IMG/VR virus record: IMGVR_UViG_3300027777_000116
Span: 1-28,347 of that record
Reading direction: 5' to 3' (one strand)
DNA length: 28,347 nucleotides
Origin: a virus
This document shows positions 8,189 to 28,347 of the stretch, in pieces. The translations under genes and the position numbers were made by a program. How positions within the stretch are numbered: position 1 is the stretch's first letter; the number at the start of each line of letters is the position of its first letter. The notes under the pieces are model-generated. The model had not been told where the DNA came from, did not search any database, and saw only the letters and a program-made list of their open reading frames with translations.

Positions 8189-10603
8189 ATGCCGAGAGCA
8201 TCAACGATCCGTGCGACGTTCAATGCGGGTGAGCTTTCCCCGCTCATGGACGGTCGCGTTGATGTCGCTAAATACAACAACGGCGCAAAGGTAGTCGAGA
8301 ATTTCATCCCGTCCGTTCAGGGTCCAGCCGTCCGGCGCCCTGGCTTCCGTTACGTCGCTGAAGTCAAAAACTCGGCTCAACAGACTTGGCTTGCGAAATT
8401 CGAGTTCAACAACTCCCAGAGCTTCATCCTGGAGTTTGGCGACTATTACGTTCGTTTCTACACGAACCACGGCGAAGTCCTGACCTCTGGCGTCGCCGCG
8501 TATAACAATGCAACCCCCTACGCAATCGCGGACCTTGTTACGAGCGGTGGGACAACCTATTACGCTATCGCTGCGACGACCGGCCACGCGCCGCCGAATG
8601 CTACCTATTGGTACGCGCTGACCGGCTCGATCTACGAAATTCCGACCCCATATGCCTCGGCGGATCTGACCGACACCAATATGACTTTCAAGCTGTCGAT
8701 GGTTCAGTCGGGAGACATCATCTACATCGCGCATCCCTCCTATGCGCTCCAGGCGCTTTCGCGCTACGGAAACACGGATTGGACCATTGCGGCGGCAGCT
8801 CTCACCAATGGCCCATTCAAAACCCAGAATACTGACAAAACGATCACAGTCTCAGCCAGTGCTGCGACAGGAACGATAACCCTCACCGCCAGTTCGGCGA
8901 TCTTCAAGGCGTCGCATGTCGGCTCCTTCTTCTACCTCGAGCCCGCAGACCTCTCGGCGATCAAGCCCTGGACGGCTGGGCAGGAGTTTGCAACGGCTTC
9001 CTCCGCTGGGACGATCTATCGTCGCTCAGACGGAAAGACCTATCTCTGCCAGACTGCGATCAGCCCCTCAGCGGGCAAGGTCTGGCGCACGGGTCCGGAC
9101 AAGCCGATCCATACCTACGGCACCCAGGACGATGGCGACGGTCAGGCAATCTCCGGAACAACATGCGAGCATCAGGGCCTAAGCTGGCAGTTCATCGACG
9201 CTGGCTATGGTTACGCAAAAATCACCGCATACACCAATTCCACCCATGTGACGGCTGTGGTTCAGGGGGATTGGGGCTTTCCGTCTGGATGTGTCGGCAC
9301 GGGCTCCTTCCGCTGGGCACATGCGGCGTTCTCTGGCGTCGAGGGCTACCCGTCAAAAGCGACGTTCTTCCGCGAACGGCTGACCCTCTCGGCTGGGATC
9401 AAGATTTACTTTTCTTGCGCGGGTGATTTCCTGAACTTTGCGGCGAAAGATGATTCCGGCAACGTCGTCGCCGACAAAGCTATCGAAGTGACGATTTCCT
9501 CCTCCCAGGTCAACACAGTCCAGTGGCTTGCGCCCGCCCAGGCGCTTCTAATCGGGACGTCCGGCTCAGAGTTTGCCTGCCAGGAGAATACAACGAACCA
9601 AGCGTTCGCGCCTGGAAACGTCAAAATCGAGCAGCAAACAACTGACGGCTGCAAGAGCGTAACGCCTGCGACGGTGGGTTACTCGATCCTGATGGTTCAA
9701 GCGTCAGGCCGAAAGTTAAAAGAAGTAGCCTACAATTTTCAGCAAAACGGCTATGTTACGGCGGACCTGACGGTCCTCTCCGAACACATAACCACGGGCG
9801 GCATCGTCCAGATGACCTGGCACAAGGAGCCCTACGTCGCGCTTTGGGTCGCTCGCGGCGATGGGATGCTGGTCGGGTTCACCTTCAATAAAGAACAGGA
9901 CGTTGTGGGATGGCACCGCCACCCTGTCGGCGGCAGCGGGATTGTCGAGAGCGTTTGCACCATGCCCGCGCCTTCTGGCGACCGTGATGAGCTGTGGACG
10001 ATCACCAGGAGAACGATCAACGGCACGACCCGCCGATATGTCGAGTATCTCGAGCAAGGCTACCAGGCGGGCGGCGCGCAAAGTGATTGCTTCTATGTGG
10101 ACGCGGGCGCCACCTATTCCGGCTCCCCCACGACGACGATCAGCGGCCTGTCCTACCTCGAGGGGATGACTGTTCAGATCCTGGCGGACGGCGCGTCGCA
10201 TCCTGATCGGGTGGTGACGAGCGGAGCGATCACGCTTCAGGTTGCCGCCTCCACGGCTCAGGTCGGCCTTGGCTACACTTCCATCCTCCAGACCAACCGG
10301 GTCGAGGGCGGGGCTGCGGACGGCACCAGCCAGGGCAAGATGAAGCGGATCAACAAGGTTGTGCTGCGGTTCTACAACACGCTGGGCGCAAAGGCTGGGC
10401 CTTCCACGGCGATCTTAGACGAGATCCAATTCCGAACCGGCTCTGACCCTATGGATGCGCCGCCCCCCCTCTTCACTGGCGACAAGCTGGTGGAGTGGCC
10501 GAATGGCTATGACTTCGACGGCTGTATCACCATCCAACAAGACCAGCCGCTCCCGATGACGCTTGTCGCCATCATGCCTCAGACCACGGTTTTCGACCGA
10601 TGA
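8189..10603 (+). CDS. Tail tubular protein B (T7 gp12-like nozzle) with inserted carbohydrate-binding-like segments
   Basis: An 804-aa nozzle subunit. The N-terminus carries the family signature TFNAGELSPLMDGRVDVAKY and VENFIPSVQGPAVRRPGFRY. The middle has the RLTLSAG and LNFAAKDDSGNVVADKAIEV strands and WLAPAQALLIGTSGSEF, all typical of the gp12-type beta-propeller. Two segments, about residues 105-148 (NNATPYAIADLVTSGGTTYY) and 256-310 (PWTAGQEF to TYLCQT), look like short CBM5/12-type modules with W/Y-x-x-G and YxC/YYA strands inserted into the propeller. T7 itself has no such inserts as far as I recall. The protein forms the distal tail tube and may touch surface sugars. Confidence 0.85.
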   Translation: MPRASTIRATFNAGELSPLMDGRVDVAKYNNGAKVVENFIPSVQGPAVRRPGFRYVAEVKNSAQQTWLAKFEFNNSQSFILEFGDYYVRFYTNHGEVLTSGVAAYNNATPYAIADLVTSGGTTYYAIAATTGHAPPNATYWYALTGSIYEIPTPYASADLTDTNMTFKLSMVQSGDIIYIAHPSYALQALSRYGNTDWTIAAAALTNGPFKTQNTDKTITVSASAATGTITLTASSAIFKASHVGSFFYLEPADLSAIKPWTAGQEFATASSAGTIYRRSDGKTYLCQTAISPSAGKVWRTGPDKPIHTYGTQDDGDGQAISGTTCEHQGLSWQFIDAGYGYAKITAYTNSTHVTAVVQGDWGFPSGCVGTGSFRWAHAAFSGVEGYPSKATFFRERLTLSAGIKIYFSCAGDFLNFAAKDDSGNVVADKAIEVTISSSQVNTVQWLAPAQALLIGTSGSEFACQENTTNQAFAPGNVKIEQQTTDGCKSVTPATVGYSILMVQASGRKLKEVAYNFQQNGYVTADLTVLSEHITTGGIVQMTWHKEPYVALWVARGDGMLVGFTFNKEQDVVGWHRHPVGGSGIVESVCTMPAPSGDRDELWTITRRTINGTTRRYVEYLEQGYQAGGAQSDCFYVDAGATYSGSPTTTISGLSYLEGMTVQILADGASHPDRVVTSGAITLQVAASTAQVGLGYTSILQTNRVEGGAADGTSQGKMKRINKVVLRFYNTLGAKAGPSTAILDEIQFRTGSDPMDAPPPLFTGDKLVEWPNGYDFDGCITIQQDQPLPMTLVAIMPQTTVFDR

Positions 10604-11028
10604 TCGTCCCATACGAGCCCGAGCACCTCACCAGGCTAAATCTGCAAAAAGCGCAAGCGATCATGCAGCCGATGCTAATTGACCCGATCTATGCCCAAAG
10701 CCTCAAAGATGCTGGCTACGCCTACTCCCTCGTCATCGACGACAAAGTTCATGCCTGCATGGGCCTTGTGAAGCAATGGGACGAGCGCGCAATCGCCTGG
10801 GGGCTCATCGGCGAGGACAGTGGCCGGCATTTCCAGAAGATCCACCGGGCCGTCCTGGCGACTATGGAGATGCACCCGTTTCGCCGGATCGAGACGAGCG
10901 TCACATGCAACTTCCCCAACGGGCGGCGCTGGGCTGGGCTTTTAGGTTTCGTTCTCGAGGGCACGATGAAGGCTTACACCCCCAATGGCCTCGATTGCGA
11001 TCTCTATGCAAAAGTGAGGGCTGCATAA
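10600..11028 (+). CDS. GNAT-fold phage protein, T7 gp13-like
   Basis: A 142-aa protein resembling the gp13-like (DUF2833) family, which has a degenerate GNAT acetyltransferase fold: YAYSLVIDDKVHACMGLVKQ, AIAWGLIGEDSGRHFQKIHR, RIETSVTCNFPNGRRWAGLL and GFVLEGTMKAYTPNG. The NFPNGRRWAGLLGF piece corresponds to the acyl-CoA-binding helix turn seen in GNAT enzymes that act near the cell envelope. Whether it acetylates anything is unknown; in T7 the protein is needed for virion morphogenesis. The start overlaps the previous stop (ATGA) and the stop TAA overlaps the next ATG, so it is translated as part of the ejection-protein operon. Confidence 0.75.
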   Translation: MIVPYEPEHLTRLNLQKAQAIMQPMLIDPIYAQSLKDAGYAYSLVIDDKVHACMGLVKQWDERAIAWGLIGEDSGRHFQKIHRAVLATMEMHPFRRIETSVTCNFPNGRRWAGLLGFVLEGTMKAYTPNGLDCDLYAKVRAA

Positions 11029-11588
11029 TGGAATCTATCCTACTCGCAGCGGGTGCTTCGGCAGGCGTTGCGTCTGGTGTCTCGACCGCAATGGCCGCAA
11101 TCGGAACAATGGTCTCCGCTGTCGGCGCGATCTCCCAGGGCAATCAGCAGGCCGAGGCGATGCGCGCCCAGGCGACCGCGAACGCCCAGGCCCAGGAGTA
11201 CAACGCCACGGTCGCCCGCAACAATGCCTTCCTTTCCTCAAGTCAGGCGAACGCGAAGGAGGAAGCGCAGCGGCGGCACTTCGCGCAGCTCCAGGGCCAG
11301 GCGGTTGCGGGCGTCGCTCAAAGTGGCACGGGGTTCGAGGGATCGAACTATGATCTGCTCAAACAGAATGCCGTCAACAATGAGCTGGATTCGCTGACGA
11401 TCCGATACCAGGGCCAGAACCAGGCCAATGGTTTGATCGCCCAGGCGCAGCTCGATGAGAGCAACGCCAAGGTCGCTCGCCAGATGGGCGAGATGAACGC
11501 ATCGAACTCGGAAACTGGCGGCTACTGGAACGCGGGCGCTGCGCTCATGAACGGCCTGACCAAATACAAATACATGAAACCAGACTAG
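11028..11588 (+). CDS. Internal virion protein, T7 gp14-like
   Basis: A 186-aa Ala/Gln/Asn-rich helical protein with a hydrophobic Gly/Ala N-terminus (about residues 6-38) that could insert into a membrane, then a long Q/A/N-rich coiled segment (NQQAEAMRAQATANAQAQEY). Size, composition and position after the gp13-like gene match the T7 gp14 type. In T7, gp14 forms the outer-membrane part of the DNA-ejection channel. The ATG at 11028 shares a base with the previous TAA stop (TAATG); an in-frame upstream extension to 10776 is only overlap with the gp13-like gene. Confidence 0.75.
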   Translation: MESILLAAGASAGVASGVSTAMAAIGTMVSAVGAISQGNQQAEAMRAQATANAQAQEYNATVARNNAFLSSSQANAKEEAQRRHFAQLQGQAVAGVAQSGTGFEGSNYDLLKQNAVNNELDSLTIRYQGQNQANGLIAQAQLDESNAKVARQMGEMNASNSETGGYWNAGAALMNGLTKYKYMKPD

Positions 11589-11596
11589 GGGCAAAA

Positions 11597-14461
11597 ATGG
11601 GCATCGTCATCCCGCAATATGAAGATCGCCTTTCGCCTGAAGGGCTGATGAACATCCGCGCCACCGCGCCTGACATGAGCGTGAACCCCGCGAACACGAA
11701 GGGGATGCAAGCGTTCGGCGAGGCGATGGGCACCCTCGGGGCGACGCAATCCCATTTGCAGCGGCAGCAGGCTAATGCTGACGCGATGACAGGGGCCTAT
11801 GCTGATCTGGCAAAGATTAAAGACGAAACTCAGCAGGCGCTACAAGCCGGTATTGATGGCATGGCCGAGGGGGCGACACTCCCCAATCCGACGACCGGCG
11901 AGGCCACACCCTTCAGTGATGTGATGAAGGCGGATGTCCAATCTCGTTATTCCGCTCTCGCGGCGAAGTATGCTAACGCGACGCCAGAGGTGAAGAACTT
12001 CGTCGGCAGGCAGATCACCGAGGCACAATCCGGCTGGAATACTACGATCAACACGGAGCATGAAAGGGGCGCTGTGGTAACGCGCCTCAAGACATACGAG
12101 GAGGGCGTGAAGGGTTCGGTGAATGATGCCGCTGCTCATCCAGAAAACTTCCAGAGCTACCTCGATGCTAACAAGTCGGCGACTGCTAATCTCGCGATCT
12201 CGTCCGACGCACGTTATCAAAAATTCCTAGAGAGCCAGGGCAGAATTCTGGATGCGGCGCTAGCAAAAGCCCGTGACAATCCAAACACCAGTCAGGAACT
12301 CAAAGATGCTTTAGAATCCCGCGCTGGAAATTACAAAGATCAACCCAATCCATTTCGTTCTATTGGGCAAGTAGCTGGGGGGCTTGCAACTAGCACTGAC
12401 GTTGAGGCAATCATCCCCGCGATCGCGGGTGCTGAAGGTACGGGCAAGAATGGAAGTTCTTCTGCAAACAATTTATATCAGTTTGTCGATGGTACTTTCA
12501 TCGCTCAAGCTAAAGCATCATTCCCAGAGCTTAAAGGTAAATCAAAGGACGAAATTCTTGCGCTCCGTGGGACCATTTACAATGGTAAGCCCATCGAAAG
12601 TATCATGGGTCCGGACCATATCAGGGCTAATGCTGAGGCGCTTAAACTCGAGCATCTGGATGCGACAGGCACCAATATCTATCTTGCTCATTTCCTCGGT
12701 ATTGGTGGGGCCATCGGTGTTCTGAAGGCAGATCCGAACACACCCATAAGGGATCTAACCGACGAGAAGGCTCAAAAAGCAAATGCGATTTTGCGCCGCC
12801 CAGGCGCGACCGCCCAAGACATCATCAACTGGGCTGGCAATACGATCAACGGCCAGGCGGGACGGTCAACAACAGCAGTCGCAACAGGCACCGCAGGACA
12901 GCCTGGGGAGCCCGTATCGGCACAGACCCCTCGCAGGGAGATCTCGCCTTGGGTCCAGGATCTCGTTAATGCCGTCCCCGGCAATAAGGTCGAGGCGGCG
13001 CTGATGCAGTCGGTGGCTGCGGTCAATACCCAAGCGACAAGCGGAATGGCTCTGTTCAACAGGGATCTTGGCGACCACCAGGCACTTGCCGAGCAAGGTA
13101 TGGGTGTCCAGCATCCAAAGACGCTTGCGGATTTTCAGCAGCACTTCCCAAACGGTAACGAGGCGGTGGACCAATACAACAATTACGCTGCGAACCTCGA
13201 TGCTGGTCAGAAGATAGCCGCATTCAAAACTATGTCCCCACAGGAAGCGCAAGCAGCTATCAATTCTTACGCTCCAAATCTCGACGCGCCTGGATCAAAA
13301 CAAGCGGGCTTGCGCCAGAATGCAATGATCGAGCAATATCATAAAGTGGAGACGGAGCGGCACGCCGACTCAATGTCATACGCGATTCAGAATAAGATCG
13401 GTGGCGCACAGCCTATTACGGATTCTTCCCCGATGGGGATTGCTCAAGCTCTTAAATCCCGATTGGCTGTCGCTGATGTTATGGCGTCGAAATTCAACAC
13501 AGACAGATCTGCGCTCTTCACGAAGAATGAGGCGCTATCATTCCAGAAGGCATACGAGAGCTTCCCCTATGATAAGCGCCTTGAGTATCTCGAGGCGATA
13601 AGGGGCGTAATTAAAGACCCTGCTCAGTTTATTCAGACGATCCAAAAGATGACGCCGGATCATCCTGTCGCTGCTTTGCAGGCCGCACTGATGACGAAGA
13701 CAACCACGGCCCCAATCACCAGTAACATGATCGCTGCGGATAAGCGGATTGATCCAACCTTCGTCGCCAGGCAAATCGGCAAGGGTGAGGAATATCGTAA
13801 CCCTACAAACGAAGCAGCAAAGAAAGATGGAAACAAACAATCGTTTTCGATGCCGGATGACAAACTGTTTAAGCAGGCGTTTGAGGATGAAACTGGAACC
13901 GTTTTCCGTGGTTCGAGTCCGATAATACGCGATACGATCTATCAGGGTGTTCTCGATTACTACATCGCCAAAAGGGTCGATAATGGATTGCAGGGGAAGC
14001 CGGAAGTAGACGGCGATCTGGTCGCTGAATCCGTCCGCGCTGTTACGGGTGGAATTGATAAGAGCACAGGCCATAACGTCATAATGCCCTGGGGAATGGA
14101 TAAGGGCGAATTCGGGAACCGATTGAAAGCGAAATATCTGGAAACGATGACCAACGCAGGGCTTGGCAAACAGGTCACTGGGAATGAGACGATTAATATC
14201 AATCCCCTTGGGGATGGGACTTATACGGTCACCGAAACCACAGGACGGCCTATCATCAATCCCAAGACAAACCAGGCTATGGTGCTCGATCTCAACAACT
14301 ACAACGCTCCGAACAGGAGCCAACTCAACAACGCGTTCGATCAGCTAAATCAGACGCCACCTCCCCCTGTTCAGGGTGCTCCAGCTCCTGCGGCTCCAAT
14401 CCCAGGGGCGACCGCCGCCTCGCCGCCTAAAAATCCCAAGCCAGTTAGAGGGGGCCTTTAA
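11597..14461 (+). CDS. Internal virion protein with lytic transglycosylase domain
   Basis: A 954-aa ejection protein. Residues about 268-415 form a lysozyme-like transglycosylase domain: IIPAIAGAEGTGKNG with probable catalytic Glu280, then NNLYQFVDGTF, and the family's TNIYLAHFLGIGGAIGVL segment. This enzyme opens a local hole in peptidoglycan for DNA entry. N-terminal residues 1-260 are helical. The long C-terminal part is helical with repeated Ala-Asn segments and ends in a Pro/Ala-rich tail. An AGGGGC site precedes the ATG; the stop TAA overlaps the next ATG. Bases about 12280-12560, which carry the catalytic part, look lower in GC than the flanks, hinting at a swapped domain. It plays the part of T7 gp16's enzyme domain but is encoded upstream in a separate protein. 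Confidence 0.85.
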   Translation: MGIVIPQYEDRLSPEGLMNIRATAPDMSVNPANTKGMQAFGEAMGTLGATQSHLQRQQANADAMTGAYADLAKIKDETQQALQAGIDGMAEGATLPNPTTGEATPFSDVMKADVQSRYSALAAKYANATPEVKNFVGRQITEAQSGWNTTINTEHERGAVVTRLKTYEEGVKGSVNDAAAHPENFQSYLDANKSATANLAISSDARYQKFLESQGRILDAALAKARDNPNTSQELKDALESRAGNYKDQPNPFRSIGQVAGGLATSTDVEAIIPAIAGAEGTGKNGSSSANNLYQFVDGTFIAQAKASFPELKGKSKDEILALRGTIYNGKPIESIMGPDHIRANAEALKLEHLDATGTNIYLAHFLGIGGAIGVLKADPNTPIRDLTDEKAQKANAILRRPGATAQDIINWAGNTINGQAGRSTTAVATGTAGQPGEPVSAQTPRREISPWVQDLVNAVPGNKVEAALMQSVAAVNTQATSGMALFNRDLGDHQALAEQGMGVQHPKTLADFQQHFPNGNEAVDQYNNYAANLDAGQKIAAFKTMSPQEAQAAINSYAPNLDAPGSKQAGLRQNAMIEQYHKVETERHADSMSYAIQNKIGGAQPITDSSPMGIAQALKSRLAVADVMASKFNTDRSALFTKNEALSFQKAYESFPYDKRLEYLEAIRGVIKDPAQFIQTIQKMTPDHPVAALQAALMTKTTTAPITSNMIAADKRIDPTFVARQIGKGEEYRNPTNEAAKKDGNKQSFSMPDDKLFKQAFEDETGTVFRGSSPIIRDTIYQGVLDYYIAKRVDNGLQGKPEVDGDLVAESVRAVTGGIDKSTGHNVIMPWGMDKGEFGNRLKAKYLETMTNAGLGKQVTGNETININPLGDGTYTVTETTGRPIINPKTNQAMVLDLNNYNAPNRSQLNNAFDQLNQTPPPPVQGAPAPAAPIPGATAASPPKNPKPVRGGL

Positions 14462-17400
14462 TGTTTGGCCTAGACCCGCTCAACGAACAGAACTTGTTGG
14501 ATGATGCCACGCGACGCGGGCATGAGAATAATCCAGATCCGGGGTTGTTTGGTGGTCTTTGGTCCGCACCACTTTCGGGTGCTGCCGAGGGAGCTTACAA
14601 GGCTGCATCGCTTTTCAACCGGGGGGTCTTAGCTCCTGTCGCCAAGACGTTTGTCGGCCCTGTTGACTCGATGATGGGCTTCCCCGTTGCAAACTGGATT
14701 GACGATCAGAATAACAAACGCGCAGCCATGCTGGACCTGGTGAAGCCTGATCCGCTTACGACCGGCGCGCTCGCCAAGGGGGTGCATGGGATCTTCACCC
14801 AGGCTCCCCTGATGGCGGGGCTTGTAGCTACAGGTGGCCTCGCTGGTCTTGCCGCTCTCCCAGGGTGGGCGGCTGGCGTCGAGGGCGAATCCGCTTTTCA
14901 GGAAGCCAGGCATAATAAGCTCGACCCCGGCACTTCGTTCGGGATGGGCGCGATCACCGCCCTGTCCACTTGGGCCGGGATGAAGGTTCCAATGCACACA
15001 AGCGCCTACCTCCCGGCGTTCACGGGCGCGACGGGCATCACGATCAAGGAGGGCATACTCCCCAGCCTGGTGGCGGGTGCTGCGGCGAACGTCCCCGTTG
15101 GGATGATTACGCGAGGCGCTACCGGAGATTGGCTGCGGTACAACGGCTTCCCCGAGATGGCCGACAACTTCAAGACGTTCGACCAGGAGGCGATTGTCTC
15201 CGATCTCGTCATGGGTGCCGGGTTTGGTGCTCTGGGCCATTATGGACCGTTGGCATATGACCGCTATCAGAAATGGCGGAAAGGTTCCGCCTTGCTGGAC
15301 TCGGACCAGGATGCCGCTTTCACGATCAACAATAATCACAGTTTAGAGCGAGGCCCCGCGATCCCGACCGATCCGGCGACGCGGGCCGCAAACTACGAGG
15401 CGAAGCTTGGCGCTCTTCGCGCCGCCATAGAAGGCAAGCCGTTCATCGTCGGTGATGGGATCACAAATGGTAATTGGCTTCACGATCCATCTAACGAGCA
15501 TATAAGCCTCCTCGGCTCCATCGGCATCGCCGAACATATGAAGGGCTCGAATTGGGACGCCGATCATACAGGCCTCATCACAGAGGCGGAACGGCTTGGG
15601 ATCGACACCAGTCCGCTCACGGGCGGCGGCGAATACCAGGGGCCGCGTGGCGAGCCAGGCGCACAAGCCTCTAAGTCTGCAAATCAAATCGCCTGGGAGG
15701 CTTCACCGGAACACGCAGATGCCGTCAAGTTTCTGACGGAAAAATGGACCCGCGAGGGTATGTCGCCAGAGGAAGCGGCGCGTCAGGCTAAGGAGACGAT
15801 TGATAAATCCGGGCCGCATCAGGACACAGCTGGAGCCCCCGGCCTGAACATCCCTGGCGCGGTGCTTGGGCATATGAGCCGGATCAAGGTTGAAGGGATC
15901 TACCATCCCGCGCAGTTCATCCTAGTCGATGCGGCGCAGCATCAGGCGACGATGAACAAGGGCGAAAATCAATTCCGCTCCAGGCAGGACAAGGTATCGC
16001 AGGCCCAGATCGAGGGGATCGCCAACGCTCCGGACGTCAATATGTTGCTGGATAGCCCCCTAATGGATTGGGGCGCCCCAACGATGGACCGACACGGCAA
16101 CATCGTAGGCGGCAACGGGCGCGTCGAGGGCCTCTCCAGGGCCTATGACAGAGGCAACGGGCACGAGTATTCCGAGCCGCTGAAGCAGCTCCTGCCCCGC
16201 TTCGGGATCGACCCGGCTGCTGCGGACGGCATGAAGAAGCCCGTCCTGATGCGGGCGTTCGTAAATGAGATGGACATCAAGCGGACTGCTATGGCCTCCA
16301 ACGAGGGCGGCGGTCTCCGAATGACCGATTACGGGCAGGCAGGCGTCGATGCGGAACGCCTCCCAGATATTCGCGGCCTGGTGCTAAAAGACAACGGCTC
16401 GATCAACTCGGCGTCGAACCGGGTGGCGATCAATGAATGGGCGCGCAAGTTTCCGTTGATCGAGGCGAACACGCTGGTCAACGGGCGTGGGGAATTATCT
16501 ACTGGCGGCGAGCGGCGCTTTCAGAACGCGATCCTGCATAGGGCATTTGGGGACAGCCCTACCCTGGAGATGCTAATCGAAACCCGAGACCCCGAGATTA
16601 AGAACGTCGCCCTGGCGCTGACGCGATCCGGTCCACATATCGCGGCGGCAAAGGCGATGATCGAGGCGGGCGATCTCCACCCCCTCGACATTACGTCAGA
16701 CCTTACTGCGGCGGTCGAGAAGATGGCCGAGCTTCGACGGTCTGGGACGACCGTCAGAGATTATCTGAACCAAAGCGAGATGTTCGCCGCGAACCAGCTT
16801 TCGCAGGAAGCTCGCAAGATCCTGTTGTTCCTGACCGAGAATAACCGTTCGGTCAAAGCAATGTCGGAGATGGTGAATAGCTTCTTTGACCAGGTGCAGG
16901 CGACGGGCAAACCGAACGCCCCGAACGCCTTCGACACGGCCCCCCCCAGCAAGGCCGAGATACTGGATCGGGCAATCGCGGCGACCGGCAGGCGTGTGAA
17001 GAGCGGCGAACTGGTCGAGACGGCTCCGGCTGCGGACCAACAAGCTTCTGCCGATACTCTTGGCTTTGCCGCTGATGCTGCCTATGCGGCGCATGATAAT
17101 GAGCAGTCCATCGTCAATCCAATCGACCCTAATGCGACGCCAAATGAGAAGGTGAGGCAGCTCAATGCGCTGACGGAGGAGAACCGTCCGGTTGTCCAAG
17201 ACCTTATGGACAAGATCGATGGGGAGGTTGGCACCACCAGCGGCTCCAATAAGAAAGCTGACGACAAGATTATTGAGAAGTCTCTGCGCCCCTCGATCTT
17301 GGATGAAAAGCCCTGGTATCGCGCCGAGCATATCCGCGACAGTTTCCGCTTCAAGACAGTCTTAGATAGCATCGATCAACTTCCCAAGGCTGTCGCGATA

Positions 17401-18231
17401 CTGCGCCAAGAGCTAGATCGCATTGGCGGTGAGATTATTAAAGCGGATCTGGAGAAGATGGTTAGCCCGAAAGAGTTCGGGTGGCGTATCGCCGTCTTCG
17501 ATCTGAAAATGCCTAATGGTCAATTAGTAGAGTATTACTTGCCCCTGAAACGGATGGAGGAAGCGAAGAAAAATGGCGGACACCAGATCTTCGAGAGCGT
17601 CCGCAACCTAGAAGTGACGCCAAAAACCCTCCCTGAAATCAGCGCGGCTTGGGACAAAAGCACTGAGCACTACAACCAAGCTTTCAACGAGCAGCTCGTC
17701 CATGAAGGCAAGACGATGGCTGACGTTCGGGCGGCGGTTGATGAGACTCAGGCTGGTTTGTCTAAGCCAAGCTCAGAGCGGGCTTCGGCAAGCAGCGCGT
17801 CGGCTTCGGGGCCTTTGACGCGGGAGTACCCGTCTTCGAAGTCGCCTGCCTTGGATGCTGGGGCAGGAGATCTCCAATTCCCCCGTAAGGATCTGACTGC
17901 TGAGAAGTCGCCTGGGCCAAATAGCCAGGCTACCTTAGAGCCGGTGTCAGATCTAAACGCGATGAATAACCCCTCGGACATAACGTCCTCCTCAGCGCGC
18001 ATTTTACAGGGTGGCGCGGAATCTGGCAAGGGGATTGCATCGGACCAGGCGATAGTCGCCCAGGCGGTCGAGACCCACGGAACCCTGCCCGTCCCGGCGG
18101 ATACCGGCCTGGCCGAGCCCCAGATCCTGCCCGCCGCCGAGGCATTCAAGAACGCCGTGGCGAACGAGGCAGAATCCAAGAACAACGCCCAAGCCTTCGA
18201 GGCGGCGATCACCTGTCTTTTGAGGGGCTGA
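14461..18231 (+). CDS. Large polyvalent virion protein with DdrB-like ParB domain and RelA/SpoT-like segment
   Basis: A 1256-aa protein in the ejection module. N-terminal residues 1-290 hold Gly/Ala-rich hydrophobic stretches (for example PLMAGLVATGGLAGLAALPG) suited to membrane passage. Residues about 472-650 match a DdrB-like ParB domain: IYHPAQFILVD, then RSRQDKVSQAQIEGIAN, IVGGNGRVEGLSRAYDRG and AMASNEGGGLRMTDYGQAG. Residues about 950-1050 look like a RelA/SpoT-type nucleotidyltransferase fold (SFRFKTVLDSIDQLPKAV, FGWRIAVFDLKMPNGQLVEY, GGHQIFESVR). The C-terminal 180 residues are Ser/Ala/Pro-rich. ParB-like domains of this type are known in 'polyvalent' proteins that phages inject with DNA to act early in the host. 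The RelA-like call is my inference. Confidence 0.75.
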   Translation: MFGLDPLNEQNLLDDATRRGHENNPDPGLFGGLWSAPLSGAAEGAYKAASLFNRGVLAPVAKTFVGPVDSMMGFPVANWIDDQNNKRAAMLDLVKPDPLTTGALAKGVHGIFTQAPLMAGLVATGGLAGLAALPGWAAGVEGESAFQEARHNKLDPGTSFGMGAITALSTWAGMKVPMHTSAYLPAFTGATGITIKEGILPSLVAGAAANVPVGMITRGATGDWLRYNGFPEMADNFKTFDQEAIVSDLVMGAGFGALGHYGPLAYDRYQKWRKGSALLDSDQDAAFTINNNHSLERGPAIPTDPATRAANYEAKLGALRAAIEGKPFIVGDGITNGNWLHDPSNEHISLLGSIGIAEHMKGSNWDADHTGLITEAERLGIDTSPLTGGGEYQGPRGEPGAQASKSANQIAWEASPEHADAVKFLTEKWTREGMSPEEAARQAKETIDKSGPHQDTAGAPGLNIPGAVLGHMSRIKVEGIYHPAQFILVDAAQHQATMNKGENQFRSRQDKVSQAQIEGIANAPDVNMLLDSPLMDWGAPTMDRHGNIVGGNGRVEGLSRAYDRGNGHEYSEPLKQLLPRFGIDPAAADGMKKPVLMRAFVNEMDIKRTAMASNEGGGLRMTDYGQAGVDAERLPDIRGLVLKDNGSINSASNRVAINEWARKFPLIEANTLVNGRGELSTGGERRFQNAILHRAFGDSPTLEMLIETRDPEIKNVALALTRSGPHIAAAKAMIEAGDLHPLDITSDLTAAVEKMAELRRSGTTVRDYLNQSEMFAANQLSQEARKILLFLTENNRSVKAMSEMVNSFFDQVQATGKPNAPNAFDTAPPSKAEILDRAIAATGRRVKSGELVETAPAADQQASADTLGFAADAAYAAHDNEQSIVNPIDPNATPNEKVRQLNALTEENRPVVQDLMDKIDGEVGTTSGSNKKADDKIIEKSLRPSILDEKPWYRAEHIRDSFRFKTVLDSIDQLPKAVAILRQELDRIGGEIIKADLEKMVSPKEFGWRIAVFDLKMPNGQLVEYYLPLKRMEEAKKNGGHQIFESVRNLEVTPKTLPEISAAWDKSTEHYNQAFNEQLVHEGKTMADVRAAVDETQAGLSKPSSERASASSASASGPLTREYPSSKSPALDAGAGDLQFPRKDLTAEKSPGPNSQATLEPVSDLNAMNNPSDITSSSARILQGGAESGKGIASDQAIVAQAVETHGTLPVPADTGLAEPQILPAAEAFKNAVANEAESKNNAQAFEAAITCLLRG

Positions 18232-18232
18232 C

Positions 18233-20875
18233 ATGAAAGACCGCTGCGTCACCGCCGTCGAGGGCGTCCTGAACCGCCGGATCACCAATGCCGAGGCGAA
18301 CGGCATCGAGGATCGGATCACCAAGAACATGCGCTTTGCGGCGCAAAACGATCCTGCCTACGCCTCGATGACGCGGGAGCAGCAGCTCATGGAGGGGGCG
18401 AAGAGGTCGGCTCTGGAGCTGATGAGCGACGCGGCGGACGCCAGGGCGAAGATCGTGATGACGATCCAGGCCCACGATCGGATCAACAACGGGATCGCCG
18501 AGGCCGAGGCTCGCGGCATGAACGGCCTGGAACACTTCCGCCGCCTGCTGGTGGCGGTCGCCGATGCAAAGTCTAACGTCATCTCGCATGAGGTGAACGC
18601 CCAGGCGATTGAACGCAACGCGATCCGGACTGCCCTCGACGCCTTCATAGCGGTGGAGCCCCGGTTGCTCGGCCTGTTTGAGGACAAGGAGGGCATCGCG
18701 CTGATGGTGAAAGCCATGCACGGGGAGCCCACAGGTAACGCCAAGATCGACGCCGGGGCGAAAGCCTGGCTCGCCACGACCGAACAGCTTCGGCTTCAAT
18801 TCAATCAATCGGGCGGCAAGATCGGCCTTCTCGAGAATTGGGCGCTCCCGCAGCACCACGATCAGATGAGGGTGAACCAGGCGGGCGTCGATAAGTGGGT
18901 GCGGGATGTCTTCGACATGCTCGACCGCAAGAAGTACGTCAACGACGACGGCACGAAGATGTCGGACGGCCAGGTGATGACCTTCCTCAAGGAAGCCTGG
19001 CAGACGATTGCGACCGACGGCGTGAACAAGATCGTGCCAGGCCAGGGCAATGGTGGCGGCGCGGTGTCGAACGACCACGCCGAGAGTCGGTCGATCCATT
19101 ACAAGGATGCCCAGGCGTACCTGGATTACCAGGCGGCATATGGCGACAAGTCCCTCTGGGGCGTGATGACCGGGCACATCCGGAAATTGTCCAAGTCCAT
19201 CAGCCTTCTGGAAACCTTTGGGCCGAATCCGGATCACACAGTTAGCCTGATAACGGACCAGCAGCTCATGAAGCTGACAAGGGCAGATCCCAGCAAGGCC
19301 GATGAGTTCAAAGAGCAGGCCGCTTATGTGAAAAAACTTTATGAGTTTTCCACAGGCAAAAGCGACAGTATTTCCAATAGGTTACTGGCGCAGTCCTTCG
19401 ACACGCTCCGGAATTGGCTAGTCACGTCGCGCCTGGGCTCTGCCGCGATCACCGCCCTGGCGGACGAGGGCACGATGCACATGACCGCACTTGCCAATGG
19501 GTTGCCTCAAGTTGAACTGGTTCGCAATGAGTTGGCGACTTTGAACCCTTTGAACAAGACCGAGGAAAACCAGGCGCATCGAGCCGGTCTCGGGCTCGAC
19601 ACCATGCTCAACCATCTGAACCGTTGGGGCCAGGACAACCTCGGCCCCACCTGGTCGAACAAGATGGCGGCGACGGTCATGCGCGCATCGGGGATCGAGG
19701 CGCTGGACGGTGGTCGTCGCCGCGCCTTTGGGGTGACGATGATGTCGGGGCTCGGCGAGACGGTTCAAAACCATGCCACGATCGCGGCGATCCCCGCTGA
19801 CAGCCGCAACATCCTGACATCGAAGGGCGCCACCGAAACCAACTTCGCCGTCTGGAAACTCGCGGAACTGGAGAAGTGGGGCGCGGGCAACGGGGTGCTG
19901 ACGCCTGAAGCAATCCAGCGCATCCCTGCCGCGACCCTCGATCCGGTGGTGAAGGCCGAGCAGGCCAGCATCGCGCAGGAGAAACAGGACAAGATCGACT
20001 CGATCAACAAAGCCCCCATGAACGCGGGCCAGAAACAACAGGCGATCAACCTCTGGTCCAAGACCTTTGACGATCAGATCGCCCAGGTTCCAGACAAGAT
20101 CCGGCGTGACGCAATCATGAGGCTCCTGGGGATGACGCTCGAGGAAACCAACATGGCAGTCATGAAGCCTGGCGTCGAAACGCAGATGATGTCCCGCGTT
20201 GCTGGCGGCAAGGGCACCTGGAGCGGCGAGCTGTACAACTCCATCTTCCAATTCAAGTCCTTCCCCATCGCCATGTTCCAGAAACATATCGCGCAGAGGG
20301 GCATGGGCCAGGAGACGGTCGGCGGCAAGGCTGCTTACATCGCGGGGCTGATGGCGATGACGACCGTCTTCGGCGCGCTGGCGCAGTCCGTGAACGATCT
20401 GGTCAGTGGCAAGGACATCCGCAACTACAACCCAATGTCCGAGTTCGGCGGGAAGAACTGGATCGGGGCGTTCCTGAAGGGTGGAAGCCTCGGGATTTAC
20501 GGCGACTTCCTCTTCTCCGCTACCACCCAGCACAATGACCAGGGGCCTATGTCGGCGCTGCTGGGGCCGACTGCTGGGTTAATAGACGACGCCTACAAGC
20601 TGACGGCGGGCAACCTCTACAAGGCGGCTGAGGGCAAACATACGAACTTCGGCACGAACCTGGTGAGTTTCATCAAAGGGAACACACCGGGGGCGAGCCT
20701 CTGGTACGTCAAGGGCGCCCTGGATCACCTGATCGTTCACAACCTTCAGGAGGCGGCGCGGCCTGGCTACCTCTCCACCATGCAGCAACGGGCGCGCAAG
20801 GAGTTCGGGCAATCCTATTGGTGGAGCCCTGGCAAGGGGCCAGAGGGAATGCGCGCCCCTGGGGTCGCAAGGTGA
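18233..20875 (+). CDS. Large internal virion (ejection) protein
   Basis: An 880-aa mostly helical protein, the last of the ejection set. Recognisable parts are ISLLETFGPNPDH (about residue 322), the helical LRNWLVTSRLGSAAITALAD, the conserved-type segment NSIFQFKSFPIAMFQKHIAQ (about 663-682), one hydrophobic helix after it (YIAGLMAMTTVFGALAQ) and the C-terminal RPGYLSTMQQRARKEFGQ with a basic end. Proteins with these C-terminal signatures close the ejection block of many Proteobacteria podoviruses and occupy the place of T7 gp16. GAGGGG stands 6 bases before the ATG, which begins one base after the previous stop. No enzymatic domain is recognised, so a channel or scaffold role in DNA ejection is inferred. 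Confidence 0.75.
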   Translation: MKDRCVTAVEGVLNRRITNAEANGIEDRITKNMRFAAQNDPAYASMTREQQLMEGAKRSALELMSDAADARAKIVMTIQAHDRINNGIAEAEARGMNGLEHFRRLLVAVADAKSNVISHEVNAQAIERNAIRTALDAFIAVEPRLLGLFEDKEGIALMVKAMHGEPTGNAKIDAGAKAWLATTEQLRLQFNQSGGKIGLLENWALPQHHDQMRVNQAGVDKWVRDVFDMLDRKKYVNDDGTKMSDGQVMTFLKEAWQTIATDGVNKIVPGQGNGGGAVSNDHAESRSIHYKDAQAYLDYQAAYGDKSLWGVMTGHIRKLSKSISLLETFGPNPDHTVSLITDQQLMKLTRADPSKADEFKEQAAYVKKLYEFSTGKSDSISNRLLAQSFDTLRNWLVTSRLGSAAITALADEGTMHMTALANGLPQVELVRNELATLNPLNKTEENQAHRAGLGLDTMLNHLNRWGQDNLGPTWSNKMAATVMRASGIEALDGGRRRAFGVTMMSGLGETVQNHATIAAIPADSRNILTSKGATETNFAVWKLAELEKWGAGNGVLTPEAIQRIPAATLDPVVKAEQASIAQEKQDKIDSINKAPMNAGQKQQAINLWSKTFDDQIAQVPDKIRRDAIMRLLGMTLEETNMAVMKPGVETQMMSRVAGGKGTWSGELYNSIFQFKSFPIAMFQKHIAQRGMGQETVGGKAAYIAGLMAMTTVFGALAQSVNDLVSGKDIRNYNPMSEFGGKNWIGAFLKGGSLGIYGDFLFSATTQHNDQGPMSALLGPTAGLIDDAYKLTAGNLYKAAEGKHTNFGTNLVSFIKGNTPGASLWYVKGALDHLIVHNLQEAARPGYLSTMQQRARKEFGQSYWWSPGKGPEGMRAPGVAR

Positions 20876-24849: not shown

Positions 24850-25581
24850 ATGCAGATGTCCGACGCTGGCCTCGACGCCATCTTAAAGAAATTCGAAGGG
24901 TGCAAACTCAAATCATACAAATGCCCCGCAGGCATTCTCACGATTGGCTTCGGCCACACCTCGGCGGCAGGCGAGCCGACTGTGACAGCGGGCGCGACCA
25001 TCACGCAGCAACAGGCCCTCGACATCCTGCACCGGGATCTTCGGGCCTTCGAGGCGGGCGTCGAGAAGCTGGTGAAGGTGGATCTGACCCAGAACCAGTT
25101 CGATGTCCTTGTCGATTTTGCCTATAACGCTGGCGTCGGAAACCTTGCGAAGAGCGGCGTTCTGCGGGCCGTCAACGCCAGGCAGTTCGACCGTGTGCCC
25201 GACGAGCTTGCCAAATGGACGCGGGGCGGTGGCAAGATCCTACCCGGCCTGGTCAAGCGATGCCAGGCCAGGACGACCTGGTGGCTGGCGCATGAGAGCC
25301 ACCCAGATGACGACCAGGACCACCGCACCGAGCCGGACCCCGTGCCGGTGAAGACGATGGCTGATAGCAAGCAGGCGAACAGCGCGGTGGCTGTCGGGGT
25401 GCTTGGGTCGGTCGGCGCGGCCAAGGAGATCACCGCCCAGGTCCAGGACGCCAATGATCTGTTCGGCACGATCATGGGGCTGGTCAGCAACCCGCAGTTC
25501 CTGATGATGGCGGCGATCGTGGGCTGCGGCGTCGCGATCTGGATCTGGCGCAAGCAGCACATGGAGGCGCACGGTGTTTAG
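24850..25581 (+). CDS. Endolysin, GH24 lysozyme with C-terminal membrane segment
   Basis: A 243-aa muramidase that cleaves peptidoglycan for cell lysis. The N-terminal GH24 domain (residues 5-150) has KKFEGCKLKSYKCPAGILTI and GFGHT, with Glu16, Cys25 and Thr31 spaced as E-x8-C-x5-T. Cys replaces the usual Asp; this Cys form is known in other lysozymes and kept activity in T4 lysozyme D20C studies. QNQFDVLVDFAYNAG is the second conserved helix. An unusual C-terminal extension adds a charged linker, then a membrane segment (about 217-235, FLMMAAIVGCGVAIWIW). Such an anchor may hold the enzyme at the inner membrane until release. An AGGAG site precedes the ATG. Confidence 0.9.
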   Translation: MQMSDAGLDAILKKFEGCKLKSYKCPAGILTIGFGHTSAAGEPTVTAGATITQQQALDILHRDLRAFEAGVEKLVKVDLTQNQFDVLVDFAYNAGVGNLAKSGVLRAVNARQFDRVPDELAKWTRGGGKILPGLVKRCQARTTWWLAHESHPDDDQDHRTEPDPVPVKTMADSKQANSAVAVGVLGSVGAAKEITAQVQDANDLFGTIMGLVSNPQFLMMAAIVGCGVAIWIWRKQHMEAHGV

Positions 25582-25925: not shown

Positions 25926-26555
25926 CTAGCCCCGGCGCTTCCTCATGGCACCCGCAATCCGCGCATGGATCACGGGGAGGCGGCGGTCCACCCCCAGGCG
26001 GGCGTAGCCTGGGCCGTGGTAGCCCATAGCGAAGGCCTTCCACTCCAGCGCCGCCAGTTCGTCGGTCAGGTTGAGGGCGATGATGTAGGTCACCATCTGA
26101 TAGAGCTGGTTCGCCTCGCTCTCCTTCGCCTCCTCGACCATCTGCTCGACGGAGCGGCAGCGGCAGATCCGGAAATTGTAGCCCATGATCTGCCCCATGC
26201 CCCAGGCCGTCGAGAGAAGCGCCGCCTCCTGGTCGATCTGGCAGGCTCTCTCGATCTCGTCATAGGTCTGGTCGCTGGCCGTGGCCGGGGGCGCCATACC
26301 CCACTGGGGATAGGCCAGACCCTCGGCGACGGCTCGAGCGCGCAGCTTCGGCTGGTCCGTTAGCTGGGCGTGGAAGATGTGGCGCTCGAACCGCGCAGTG
26401 GGACGGCCAGCCTGGTCGAAACCAGAGCTGTCCGTCTCCACCTCCAGCACCGCCTGGAACACCGAAAGCGGTAGCTCCAGATGGAAGGCTGTCGCGATGA
26501 CATCATCCCGGTCACAGGGCTTGGCGGCTCCTGTGAACTTTATGGGGTCGTTCAC
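25926..26555 (-). CDS. N-acetylmuramidase (PF11860/DUF3380 type), second cell-wall hydrolase
   Basis: A 209-aa protein consisting of one N-acetylmuramidase domain. AVLEVETDSSGFDQAGRPTA includes Glu38/Glu40, RFERHIFH has Glu57, and the C-terminal core has TAWGMGQIMGYN, NQLYQMVTYI and AFAMGYHGPGY, all family signatures. These enzymes cleave the glycan chain. The GTG at 26555 overlaps the exonuclease stop as GTGA with GGGGGAGG upstream; an in-frame extension to 26681 lies inside the exonuclease gene. No signal peptide is visible. Its opposite orientation to the lysis cassette and its coupling to a recombination gene are odd. It may be a reserve endolysin brought by recombination, or an enzyme used early or in another process. 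Confidence 0.82.
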   Translation of the reverse strand: MNDPIKFTGAAKPCDRDDVIATAFHLELPLSVFQAVLEVETDSSGFDQAGRPTARFERHIFHAQLTDQPKLRARAVAEGLAYPQWGMAPPATASDQTYDEIERACQIDQEAALLSTAWGMGQIMGYNFRICRCRSVEQMVEEAKESEANQLYQMVTYIIALNLTDELAALEWKAFAMGYHGPGYARLGVDRRLPVIHARIAGAMRKRRG

Positions 26556-27553
26556 GCCTCCCCCTCGGTTTTGCCATCGGCGCTCTGGACCGTGATCCCG
26601 AGGGTCTTGCGGCGGATCGAGTAGGCAGGCTTGCCCAGGGTCGTCTTGTCGGCGGTCGCCTTGTAGTTGATCGTCGGCCACTTCACCGTCCAGGTGGTGC
26701 CGTCGCTGTCGCGGGCCACCCCTGCATCGTGGTTGCCCAGGAGCCCCATCAGGGCGCTGGTGGTCTCCTCGATGGTACGCTCGGCGATCTTCAACAGCTT
26801 CTTGGCGGCGATCAGCTCGTCACACAGCGCGATGGCGGCGCGGTCCAGATCGACGGGCGGGGCTCCGGTCTCGGCCCGCGCATAGGTCCGGATCCCATCG
26901 GCGGGATTGGCCGGGACGTAGTAGTCCGGACCCCGCTTGCGCCGCTCGAACTCCTCCACCGCCTCCTTGATTATGGAGATCATCTTCTCGTCGCGGGCGA
27001 AGACAAAGATCCTAAGCTCGATCCCCTGGTAGAGCACCCCGACAGCGCCCCACTTGAAGCCCGAGCACAGGAGCTGACCCTGGAGCTGGATCGGCCCTCG
27101 GTGTGGCGCCGGGGCGTCCTCGGCGTGGTTGCTGGTGAGCTTGCACTCGAATGCGCCGTTGCCGCTGAGGGTGATCTCGCCGCTCTCGGTCATCACATAG
27201 ATGCCCTTGTCGGGGTCGGTCTTGATGACCTTCTTGCGGTCCACCGGGATCATCCCAGCCACCCCATCCAGCGATCCGCTGAGGGCAATCCCAGGCGGCG
27301 CATGGAACGGCGCGTCTGGCTTGAGCAGGACATCCATGCCCAGCCGCTGCCGCATCAGCTCGAGGATGATCGGCTCCATTGTGTCGCCCATGCGGGTGGC
27401 TTCGTTGCCTTCCCAGGGCTTCGCGGCGATCCCGTTCAGAGCGGCATAGCTCTTTTGCAGCTCGTCGTTCGGGCTCGACCAGGGGCTCAATCCCATCAAG
27501 GCCGGGAGACGCGAGCAGGACATTTGATTATCGTTTGTGAGCTTGCCAACCAT
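26552..27553 (-). CDS. YqaJ-type phage recombination exonuclease
   Basis: A 333-aa protein whose N-terminal part matches the YqaJ/lambda-exonuclease nuclease fold. SRLPALMGLSPWSSPNDEL is the entry motif, GDTMEPIILELM holds Glu60, SGSLDGV holds Asp96 and FECKLT holds Glu136-x-Lys138, the expected metal-binding set; QLQGQLLCSG follows as the next helix. Such exonucleases resect 5' ends for single-strand annealing with a phage annealase, which is not in this window. The C-terminus has a Lys/Glu helix and a basic end. ATG at 27553 is preferred because a GGGGGG run stands 7 bases upstream; TTG at 27583 would add 10 residues. It probably forms an operon with the muramidase. Confidence 0.85.
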   Translation of the reverse strand: MVGKLTNDNQMSCSRLPALMGLSPWSSPNDELQKSYAALNGIAAKPWEGNEATRMGDTMEPIILELMRQRLGMDVLLKPDAPFHAPPGIALSGSLDGVAGMIPVDRKKVIKTDPDKGIYVMTESGEITLSGNGAFECKLTSNHAEDAPAPHRGPIQLQGQLLCSGFKWGAVGVLYQGIELRIFVFARDEKMISIIKEAVEEFERRKRGPDYYVPANPADGIRTYARAETGAPPVDLDRAAIALCDELIAAKKLLKIAERTIEETTSALMGLLGNHDAGVARDSDGTTWTVKWPTINYKATADKTTLGKPAYSIRRKTLGITVQSADGKTEGEA

Positions 27554-27637
27554 TGTGTTTCCCCCCAAAAAAGTGTTCTTCAAAAACCACGTAACCCATT
27601 GATGTTCGGGTCCGAGATTCCTGTCGTTCTTCAGGGT

Positions 27638-27825: not shown

Positions 27826-28347
27826 TTATTCACCGAATGTTCTCTGCAACTTCGCTATTCCCGACTCGGCCAGGGCCGGATCGCGACTCAGATAATGGGC
27901 GTCCAGGATCTCGCGGACGGACTGCAAGGAGTGGCCGGTGATCGTCGCGATCTCCGCTTCCGTACATTCTGACAACGCCAGGCGGGTGACTGCCGTGCCG
28001 CGCAGATCATGGAAGGTCAGCCCCTCAATCCCAACCTTGGCGCACCCGCGCCGCCACACGCTCTTGAACCCGCCCGTGGTGTAGGGCGTGTCCTTGCCGC
28101 TTAGGATGATCTGAATCCCCTTTCGCGGCAAAGCGTCTAGCATCTCCTTCAAGAGTCCACCCACCGGGATGGTCATCGCCCGCCCGCTCTTGCGCTGGCG
28201 GAACCGGAGCTTGGAACCGTCGTAGGCTGACCACGGCATCGTCAGGATGTCGCCCTGGCGCTGGCCGGTCCAGATCGCAAAGACGAAGGGCAGCACCATC
28301 GTGTCGGGGGCGCGCTTGAGGAATTCTGTCTCATCCGCACGGGTCCA
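27826..28347 (-). CDS. int: Tyrosine integrase, C-terminal catalytic part (partial)
   Basis: The frame is open to the window edge, so the gene is cut at its 5' side; 173 codons remain. It carries the catalytic residues of a site-specific tyrosine recombinase: Arg in WTGQRQGDI, the HDLRG motif (His-x-x-Arg), the later His in ITGHSL and the nucleophile in AHYLSRD. The upstream WTRADETEFLKRAPD is the usual lead into the catalytic domain. It integrates and excises the phage at the tRNA-Pro core, which lies 113 bases from its 3' end. The N-terminal arm-binding and core-binding domains are outside the window. Confidence 0.92.
   Translation of the reverse strand, partial: WTRADETEFLKRAPDTMVLPFVFAIWTGQRQGDILTMPWSAYDGSKLRFRQRKSGRAMTIPVGGLLKEMLDALPRKGIQIILSGKDTPYTTGGFKSVWRRGCAKVGIEGLTFHDLRGTAVTRLALSECTEAEIATITGHSLQSVREILDAHYLSRDPALAESGIAKLQRTFGE

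Follow-up and report, generated by a model that had tools for sequence, protein, structure and literature searches.

A probable immunity gene nested antisense within the gene for a RelA/SpoT-type ejection protein of an epsilon15-like podophage

In the 28,347-nt stretch of viral DNA analysed here (the window), the gene of a large polyvalent protein, P0001, carries on its opposite strand a small gene, IMM, which encodes 77 amino acids. Judging from sequence comparison, IMM is probably the immunity gene of a virion-delivered RelA-type toxin that forms part of P0001. The existence of the nested antisense gene is well supported by homology and by its predicted expression signals; it was not recorded in the preliminary description of this DNA, which dealt with P0001 alone. 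The features discussed below are listed in Table 1.

Table 1. Features of the P0001 gene, the nested IMM gene and the adjoining virion gene (window coordinates)
Feature	Position	Strand	Evidence
Ejection-type polyvalent protein P0001, 1256 aa	14461..18231	+	Frame open throughout
Epsilon15/phiV10 gp16-type N-terminal region, residues 1-327	14461..15441	+	phrog_1145, E=3.2e-36
DdrB-like ParB domain, residues 482-599, GGNGR motif	15904..16257	+	Pfam PF18763, E=4.2e-21
Extended DdrB homology, residues 502-835	15964..16965	+	tblastn, E down to 2e-65; phrog_5143, phrog_2299
RelA/SpoT-fold pyrophosphokinase-like domain, residues 906-1094	17176..17742	+	AF2, PDB fold search, hhalign, conservation
IMM, nested antisense gene of 77 aa, predicted immunity partner	17748..17981	-	Profile, position, phase, AF2
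Shine-Dalgarno sequence AGGAGG, 5 nt before the IMM ATG	17987..17992	-	Sequence
Sigma70-like promoter TTGCCA-17-TAAAAT for IMM	18001..18029	-	Sequence; 10/12 match
C-terminal tail ending AFEAAITCLLRG	18181..18228	+	Alignment; type common to phiV10 gp19 and L064
Epsilon15 gp17-type virion protein, next gene	18233..20875	+	phrog_684, E=1e-239

The virion module of the window starts with genes for a terminase, a portal-type head-tail connector (phrog_332), a major head protein and a tail tube, followed by those for a nozzle (phrog_376), an internal virion protein (phrog_418) and a 954-aa protein with a transglycosylase-type stretch; the P0001 gene, the epsilon15 gp17-type gene and a tail fibre gene come next. 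The gene order of phiV10 is the same, and the succession of nozzle, RelA protein and gp17 is kept in many relatives. Both the N-terminal homology of P0001 and its place between the nozzle and gp17 genes are those of the epsilon15 gp16-type protein, whose family gives a full-length match to phiV10 gp19. In addition, the tail AFEAAITCLLRG of P0001 resembles FDVAVACFLRG of phiV10 in the alignment, and the next gene shows 42% identity to phiV10. Neither Pfam nor phrog revealed a MuF N-terminal domain in P0001. In the corresponding protein of Alcaligenes phage Piluca, gp47, the gp16 frame bears both a transglycosylase stretch and a DdrB-ParB domain, and the comparison of P0001, phiV10 and Piluca therefore indicates that extra domains were inserted between the gp16 N-terminus and the conserved tail. 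In agreement with the preliminary description, which had placed the gene within the virion-ejection block, sequence homology and gene order establish P0001 as an ejection-type protein that occupies the gp16 slot of an epsilon15-like podophage and has gained DdrB-ParB and RelA-type domains. On the basis of synteny, P0001 is presumably a virion component that is ejected with the DNA. Matches of P0001 to HEPN_DZIP3 and to DNA ligase were weak and were set aside as noise.

Several other features of the window were noted. Two ORFs in different frames overlap by about 250 nt at 10600-11588, and the internal virion protein gene, listed with a start at 10776, probably begins further downstream. Endolysin-type genes were found on opposite strands, at 24850-25581 (plus) and 25926-26681 (minus), the latter encoding an N-acetylmuramidase (PF11860). 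A YqaJ-type recombinase gene lies at 26552-27583 (minus), and an integrase fragment at 27826-28299 (minus), at the end of the incomplete record; from this fragment the phage is probably temperate.

The DdrB-like ParB domain, previously proposed at residues about 472-650, was recovered at 482-599 with a PF18763 score of 75.8 bits against a gathering cut-off of 27.6. The extended homology downstream is common to phage P1 DdrB, Piluca gp47 and polyvalent proteins. According to Iyer et al. 2017 (PMC5512222), DdrB-ParB domains are predicted to have an NTP-regulated DNase activity, and P1 DdrB is processed and packaged in the phage head.

The RelA-type domain is detectable only with a profile. P0001 alone gave no RelA match in Pfam, NCBIfam or PDB sequence searches, and a sequence scan of the single protein would therefore miss the segment; P0001 stayed below the gathering score of PF04607, only 2 of 11 close relatives matched that family (best E=0.024), and a scan of IMG/VR with full-length P0001 returned no match. 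A faint tblastn match (E=0.1) was found in Bordetella phage PHB04, whose protein scores 30.6 bits against Pfam RelA_SpoT (cut-off 27); relatives one ring out from P0001 match PF04607, PHB04 above the cut-off. A profile of four phage domains resembling Pfam RelA_SpoT, with the query left out, matched the lone query in hhalign with E=4.6e-8, and its best PDB sequence match was Tas1 (6ox6; E=5e-14), followed by RelA/SpoT synthetases. The subfamily profile of 11 close relatives (A5, query included) matched the four-domain profile with E=8e-16, and its three best PDB sequence matches were SAS/RelP enzymes (E=0.0014). An AF2 model of the domain, built without templates, reached a pLDDT of 88.2 and a pTM of 0.82. 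When it was searched against the PDB, the 44 best matches were all of RelA/SpoT type (alarmone or tRNA pyrophosphokinases; best E=4.1e-7, TM up to 0.64) and included exported SAS, RelP, SAS1, Tas1 and CapRel; the best matches in a viral fold library were phage proteins, several of them annotated as DdrB-like, RelA/SpoT or ART-PolyVal. The RelA fold of P0001 is thus well supported by modelling and profile comparison. The motifs quoted in the preliminary description are all present (DSFRFK at 960, FGWRI at 1006, GQLVEYY at 1020 and GGHQIF at 1039), and its RelA/SpoT-like reading held in the HMM-HMM comparison and the fold search, but the domain extends over residues of about 906-1094 rather than about 950-1050. 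Among named phages and plasmids, the P0001-type subfamily was not found beyond the distant PHB04.

Conservation was assessed after reducing the 72 domains to 52 non-redundant ones (median pairwise identity 46%); adding 905 to the domain numbering gives that of P0001. K27, K35, R38, W47, D55, D91, G102, N114, Q116, E119, H136 and R143 are invariant in all 52, and the predicted active-site positions in P0001 are K932, K940, R943, D960, W1008, E1024 and H1041. In FaRel2, the ATP phosphates are held by R64/K66 and S70/K74/R77 (PMC11782079). In an alignment to YwaC, K27, K35 and R38 correspond to K66, K74 and R77 and are identically spaced, and the R64 position is mostly Asn or Ser in the RelA-domain relatives. 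D55 aligns with the Asp of DxxGxR and E119, in an alignment with the wider ring, with the Glu of ExQ; because the loci were collected with two motif patterns spanning D55 and E119, the full conservation of these two residues is partly selected, while K27, K35, R38, W47, D91, H136 and R143 lie outside both patterns. Classical synthetases have Tyr, Ser and His at the acceptor site, and these are not retained: GYR.S.H has become GWR and EIQ has become EYY, the G-loop Tyr that stacks on the acceptor base is replaced by Trp in 49 and Phe in 3 of the 52, and the Q of ExQ is Gln in 5 and Tyr in 47. These altered motifs and the missing equivalent of Arg64 would fit a catalytically dead domain that serves the ejection protein as a structural or nucleotide-binding module. 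However, the Asp, the Glu and the Lys/Lys/Arg set are invariant in copies from many protein contexts, and a dead domain would have no need of an immunity-like partner, so that we regard this explanation as very improbable. The invariance of the Lys/Lys/Arg set and of the two acidic residues speaks against the earlier caveat that catalytic residues may be degenerate; it is the acceptor side that differs. We read the domain as one with a putatively active donor site and a changed acceptor site.

Thirteen bacterial MAG loci carry the RelA-like domain. In most of them it either forms the last ~195 aa, at the C-terminus, of a longer protein (L053-L059) or is close to a stand-alone protein (L048-L051). 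These eleven are cellular copies, from MAGs titled Obscuribacterales, Melainabacteria or Cyanobacteria, and the domain with its ~82-aa neighbour probably constitutes a bacterial toxin-immunity pair in them. Three of the MAG loci share the ~82-aa downstream gene (49-60% identical), and with a profile of these three genes additional copies adjoining the domain were recovered in the other MAG loci, while antisense ORFs within phage genes gave weak matches. A MAG-only profile was then rebuilt from ten bacterial stand-alone copies, all of which lie clear of the toxin frame. Nine phage contigs had antisense ORFs that matched it (E 7e-10 to 0.006), each located roughly +530 to +820 nt from where the domain begins, and reversed decoys gave no match. 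After iteration, the partner gene was found in 72 of 72 RelA-domain loci, so that, as expected of a toxin-immunity pair, a cognate small gene always stands beside the toxin domain. Nested antisense copies account for 61 of these (the window, viral contigs and the two MAG contigs L047 and L052); the 11 separate copies lie upstream in divergent orientation or downstream in convergent or tandem orientation, or are fused to the next gene. Away from these sites, no E-value below 0.2 was obtained in 18,459 frames, DdrB proteins lacking RelA (L002-L005) had no partner gene, and two scans started from the partner revealed no orphan copy, the matched contigs all carrying the RelA domain.

In the window, IMM runs on the minus strand from an ATG at 17981 to a stop at 17748, and its plus-strand counterpart is a Ser/Ala-rich linker that follows the RelA domain. 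Its promoter is the best match within the 3.77-kb P0001 gene. A profile of 27 other loci, with the window left out, matched IMM with E=7.4e-8; the bacterial-MAG-only profile gave E=43 and the next step a weak 0.1, and the assignment of IMM in the window rests on the iterated profile, its position and its signals. AF2 returned a compact alpha/beta model of the 77-aa product (pLDDT 78), and the predicted fold had no match in the PDB. The best PDB sequence matches of the partner were to unrelated proteins, with E=0.0026 at best, and were rejected.

The partner has the same position and phase in 61/61 nested copies, and the plus frame is open through 60 of the 61. In this phase the wobble positions of both strands coincide, and the substitution pattern therefore cannot show which strand is constrained; observed/expected amino-acid changes were 0.45 for the minus and 0.52 for the plus strand, and equal in distant pairs. 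The antisense ORF could accordingly be taken for a by-product of a conserved, GC-rich plus strand in the wobble-facing phase, and the equal constraint on both frames is in keeping with this. However, the profile that found the phage copies was built from separate MAG genes outside the toxin frame and had zero decoy matches, the partner also occurs in tandem, divergent or convergent orientation in bacterial loci, and expression signals are enriched far above control. A Shine-Dalgarno sequence of at least 5 nt precedes the start in 36 of 42 non-redundant nested copies, compared with 0.9% of minus-strand NTG codons, although the partner starts were picked partly by this sequence from a few candidates. 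A promoter matching at least 9/12 positions lies within 80 nt of the start in 11 of the 42 (control, 2.1%), and in most of these the ATG follows the -10 box at a distance of 16-22 nt. A by-product is the least probable of the alternatives weighed here, and we retain the reading of IMM as a gene.

A virion-ejected RelA-type toxin with a nested antisense immunity gene is a likely joint explanation, in which we infer toxicity, substrate, delivery and neutralisation. P0001 would enter the recipient cell together with the phage DNA, and its RelA domain would transfer pyrophosphate from ATP to an acceptor, either a nucleotide, as with Tas1 and Apk2, or tRNA 3' ends, as with FaRel2 and CapRel, and so stop growth of the recipient. 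The IMM product would act as an immunity protein that neutralises the RelA domain. It would be expressed from its own promoter in lysogens, where the late operon is silent, and would also be made soon after phage entry; lysogens and productively infected cells would then survive and non-immune competitors would be hit. The nested position may follow from the internal position of the toxin domain, since an immunity gene right behind it cannot avoid overlapping the remaining part of the reading frame. Support for a toxin-immunity pair comes from the small gene beside the C-terminal domain in most bacterial MAG loci, and from the small genes and HD_4 hydrolases behind domains of the wider family, as in MuF-Apk2 with IapK/Aph1 (PMC12226406).

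Alternatively, an active alarmone synthetase could reprogram the phage's own host, towards a stringent-like state or lysogeny, with the antisense gene as a regulator or modulator. A shift in host transcription and translation has been proposed for polyvalent RelA domains by Iyer et al. (PMC5512222), and many phage contigs bear the domain within polyvalent proteins. However, a dedicated partner accompanies every copy, including those in bacterial loci where the domain is C-terminal as in polymorphic toxins, an association that fits immunity better than modulation. We consider host reprogramming unlikely, and the toxin-immunity reading is followed below.

RelA-type toxins carried in virions and RelA domains in polyvalent proteins have been described before. 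MuF-Apk2 of temperate phages (PMC12226406) likewise couples a RelA/SpoT-type pyrophosphokinase domain in a head-associated protein to a small immunity gene, and fusions of RelA/SpoT domains to MuF are described by Iyer et al. 2017 (PMC5512222). In contrast to MuF-Apk2, the carrier of the domain in P0001 is an epsilon15-type ejection protein with a DdrB-ParB domain, the RelA domain is internal, the locus is without an HD_4 hydrolase, and the partner is nested antisense and not downstream; from 18233 on, no immunity or hydrolase gene was found behind the P0001 gene. Polyvalent proteins of Helicobacter prophages with DdrB-ParB and RelA/SpoT (PMC5512222) have the same domain types adjoining virion genes. 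P0001 differs from the polyvalent proteins treated in the passages of that paper cited here in its Pfam-invisible RelA subfamily, its podophage gp16 slot and its antisense partner, which those passages do not mention. The epsilon15/phiV10 gp16-type protein and Piluca gp47 resemble P0001 in N-terminus, tail and position, but the RelA domain is missing from both the phiV10 protein and gp47, and so is the antisense gene. The toxic synthetases Tas1 (6ox6), FaRel/FaRel2 and CapRel share the fold of the RelA domain, whereas the G-loop residue of P0001 is Trp (Trp or Phe in relatives) instead of Tyr, and its delivery would be by the virion. The immunity gene of pore-forming (ionophoric) colicins is located behind the colicin gene, not inside it. 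It is encoded on the other strand and has a promoter of its own (PMC9517006), an arrangement shared with P0001, whose partner, however, lies inside the P0001 gene.

In the literature searched, no antisense immunity gene of the IMM kind is described, and a conserved immunity gene hidden opposite inside a toxin gene would be new there. If the reading is correct, it implies an expression logic in which the toxin is late and the antidote comes from its own opposite promoter, explains the odd Ser/Ala-rich linkers of RelA-type polyvalent proteins, indicates that overlapping genes on opposite strands can be both ancient and conserved, and offers a route to hidden antidotes in phage genomes. Should the layout be general, nested antidotes would presumably escape ordinary gene callers.

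In the P0001-type RelA subfamily, HD_4 hydrolases were found in 0 of 43 records (the window included; many are fragments), and they occur only in the wider ring, in PHB04, L042 and L044. Where the domain is C-terminal in the wider ring, a small gene follows in tandem, in these three cases with HD_4; in L032 the tandem layout behind the domain was judged by eye. PHB04-type RelA proteins adjoin the portal gene. Behind the domain, at 6492-7276 of L001 and in L032, L042 and L044, comes a small gene (consensus M-I-x-IENEGALFRGPAR) together with an HD_4 hydrolase, a set that resembles the Apk2/IapK/Aph1 arrangement in phages. Homology of the IMM partner to the small genes behind wider-ring domains was considered and was unsupported by hhalign.

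Antisense ORFs led by a Shine-Dalgarno sequence were also observed at 6354-6563 of L008, 6426-6602 of L017 and 6354-6581 of L038 (all minus). Each lies directly behind the RelA_SpoT-type domain, of a more distant RelA subfamily, in a polyvalent protein of ~3000 aa, is in the same phase as IMM, and is unrelated in sequence to the IMM partner; L018 has no such ORF behind its domain, and ORFs of this kind also occur elsewhere in wider-ring loci. The layout tracks the position of the domain, C-terminal or embedded, and nesting may therefore be an answer to an embedded toxin domain, which we offer as a lead. A general layout, in which a toxin embedded in a phage virion protein has its antidote encoded antisense within that protein's gene and transcribed from a separate promoter, has slightly better than an even chance of being correct. 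In the polyvalent proteins of L019 and L027, the RelA-like domain and an inorganic pyrophosphatase domain (PF18823) occur in one polypeptide; possible roles of the latter are the removal of pyrophosphate and an action on the same pool.
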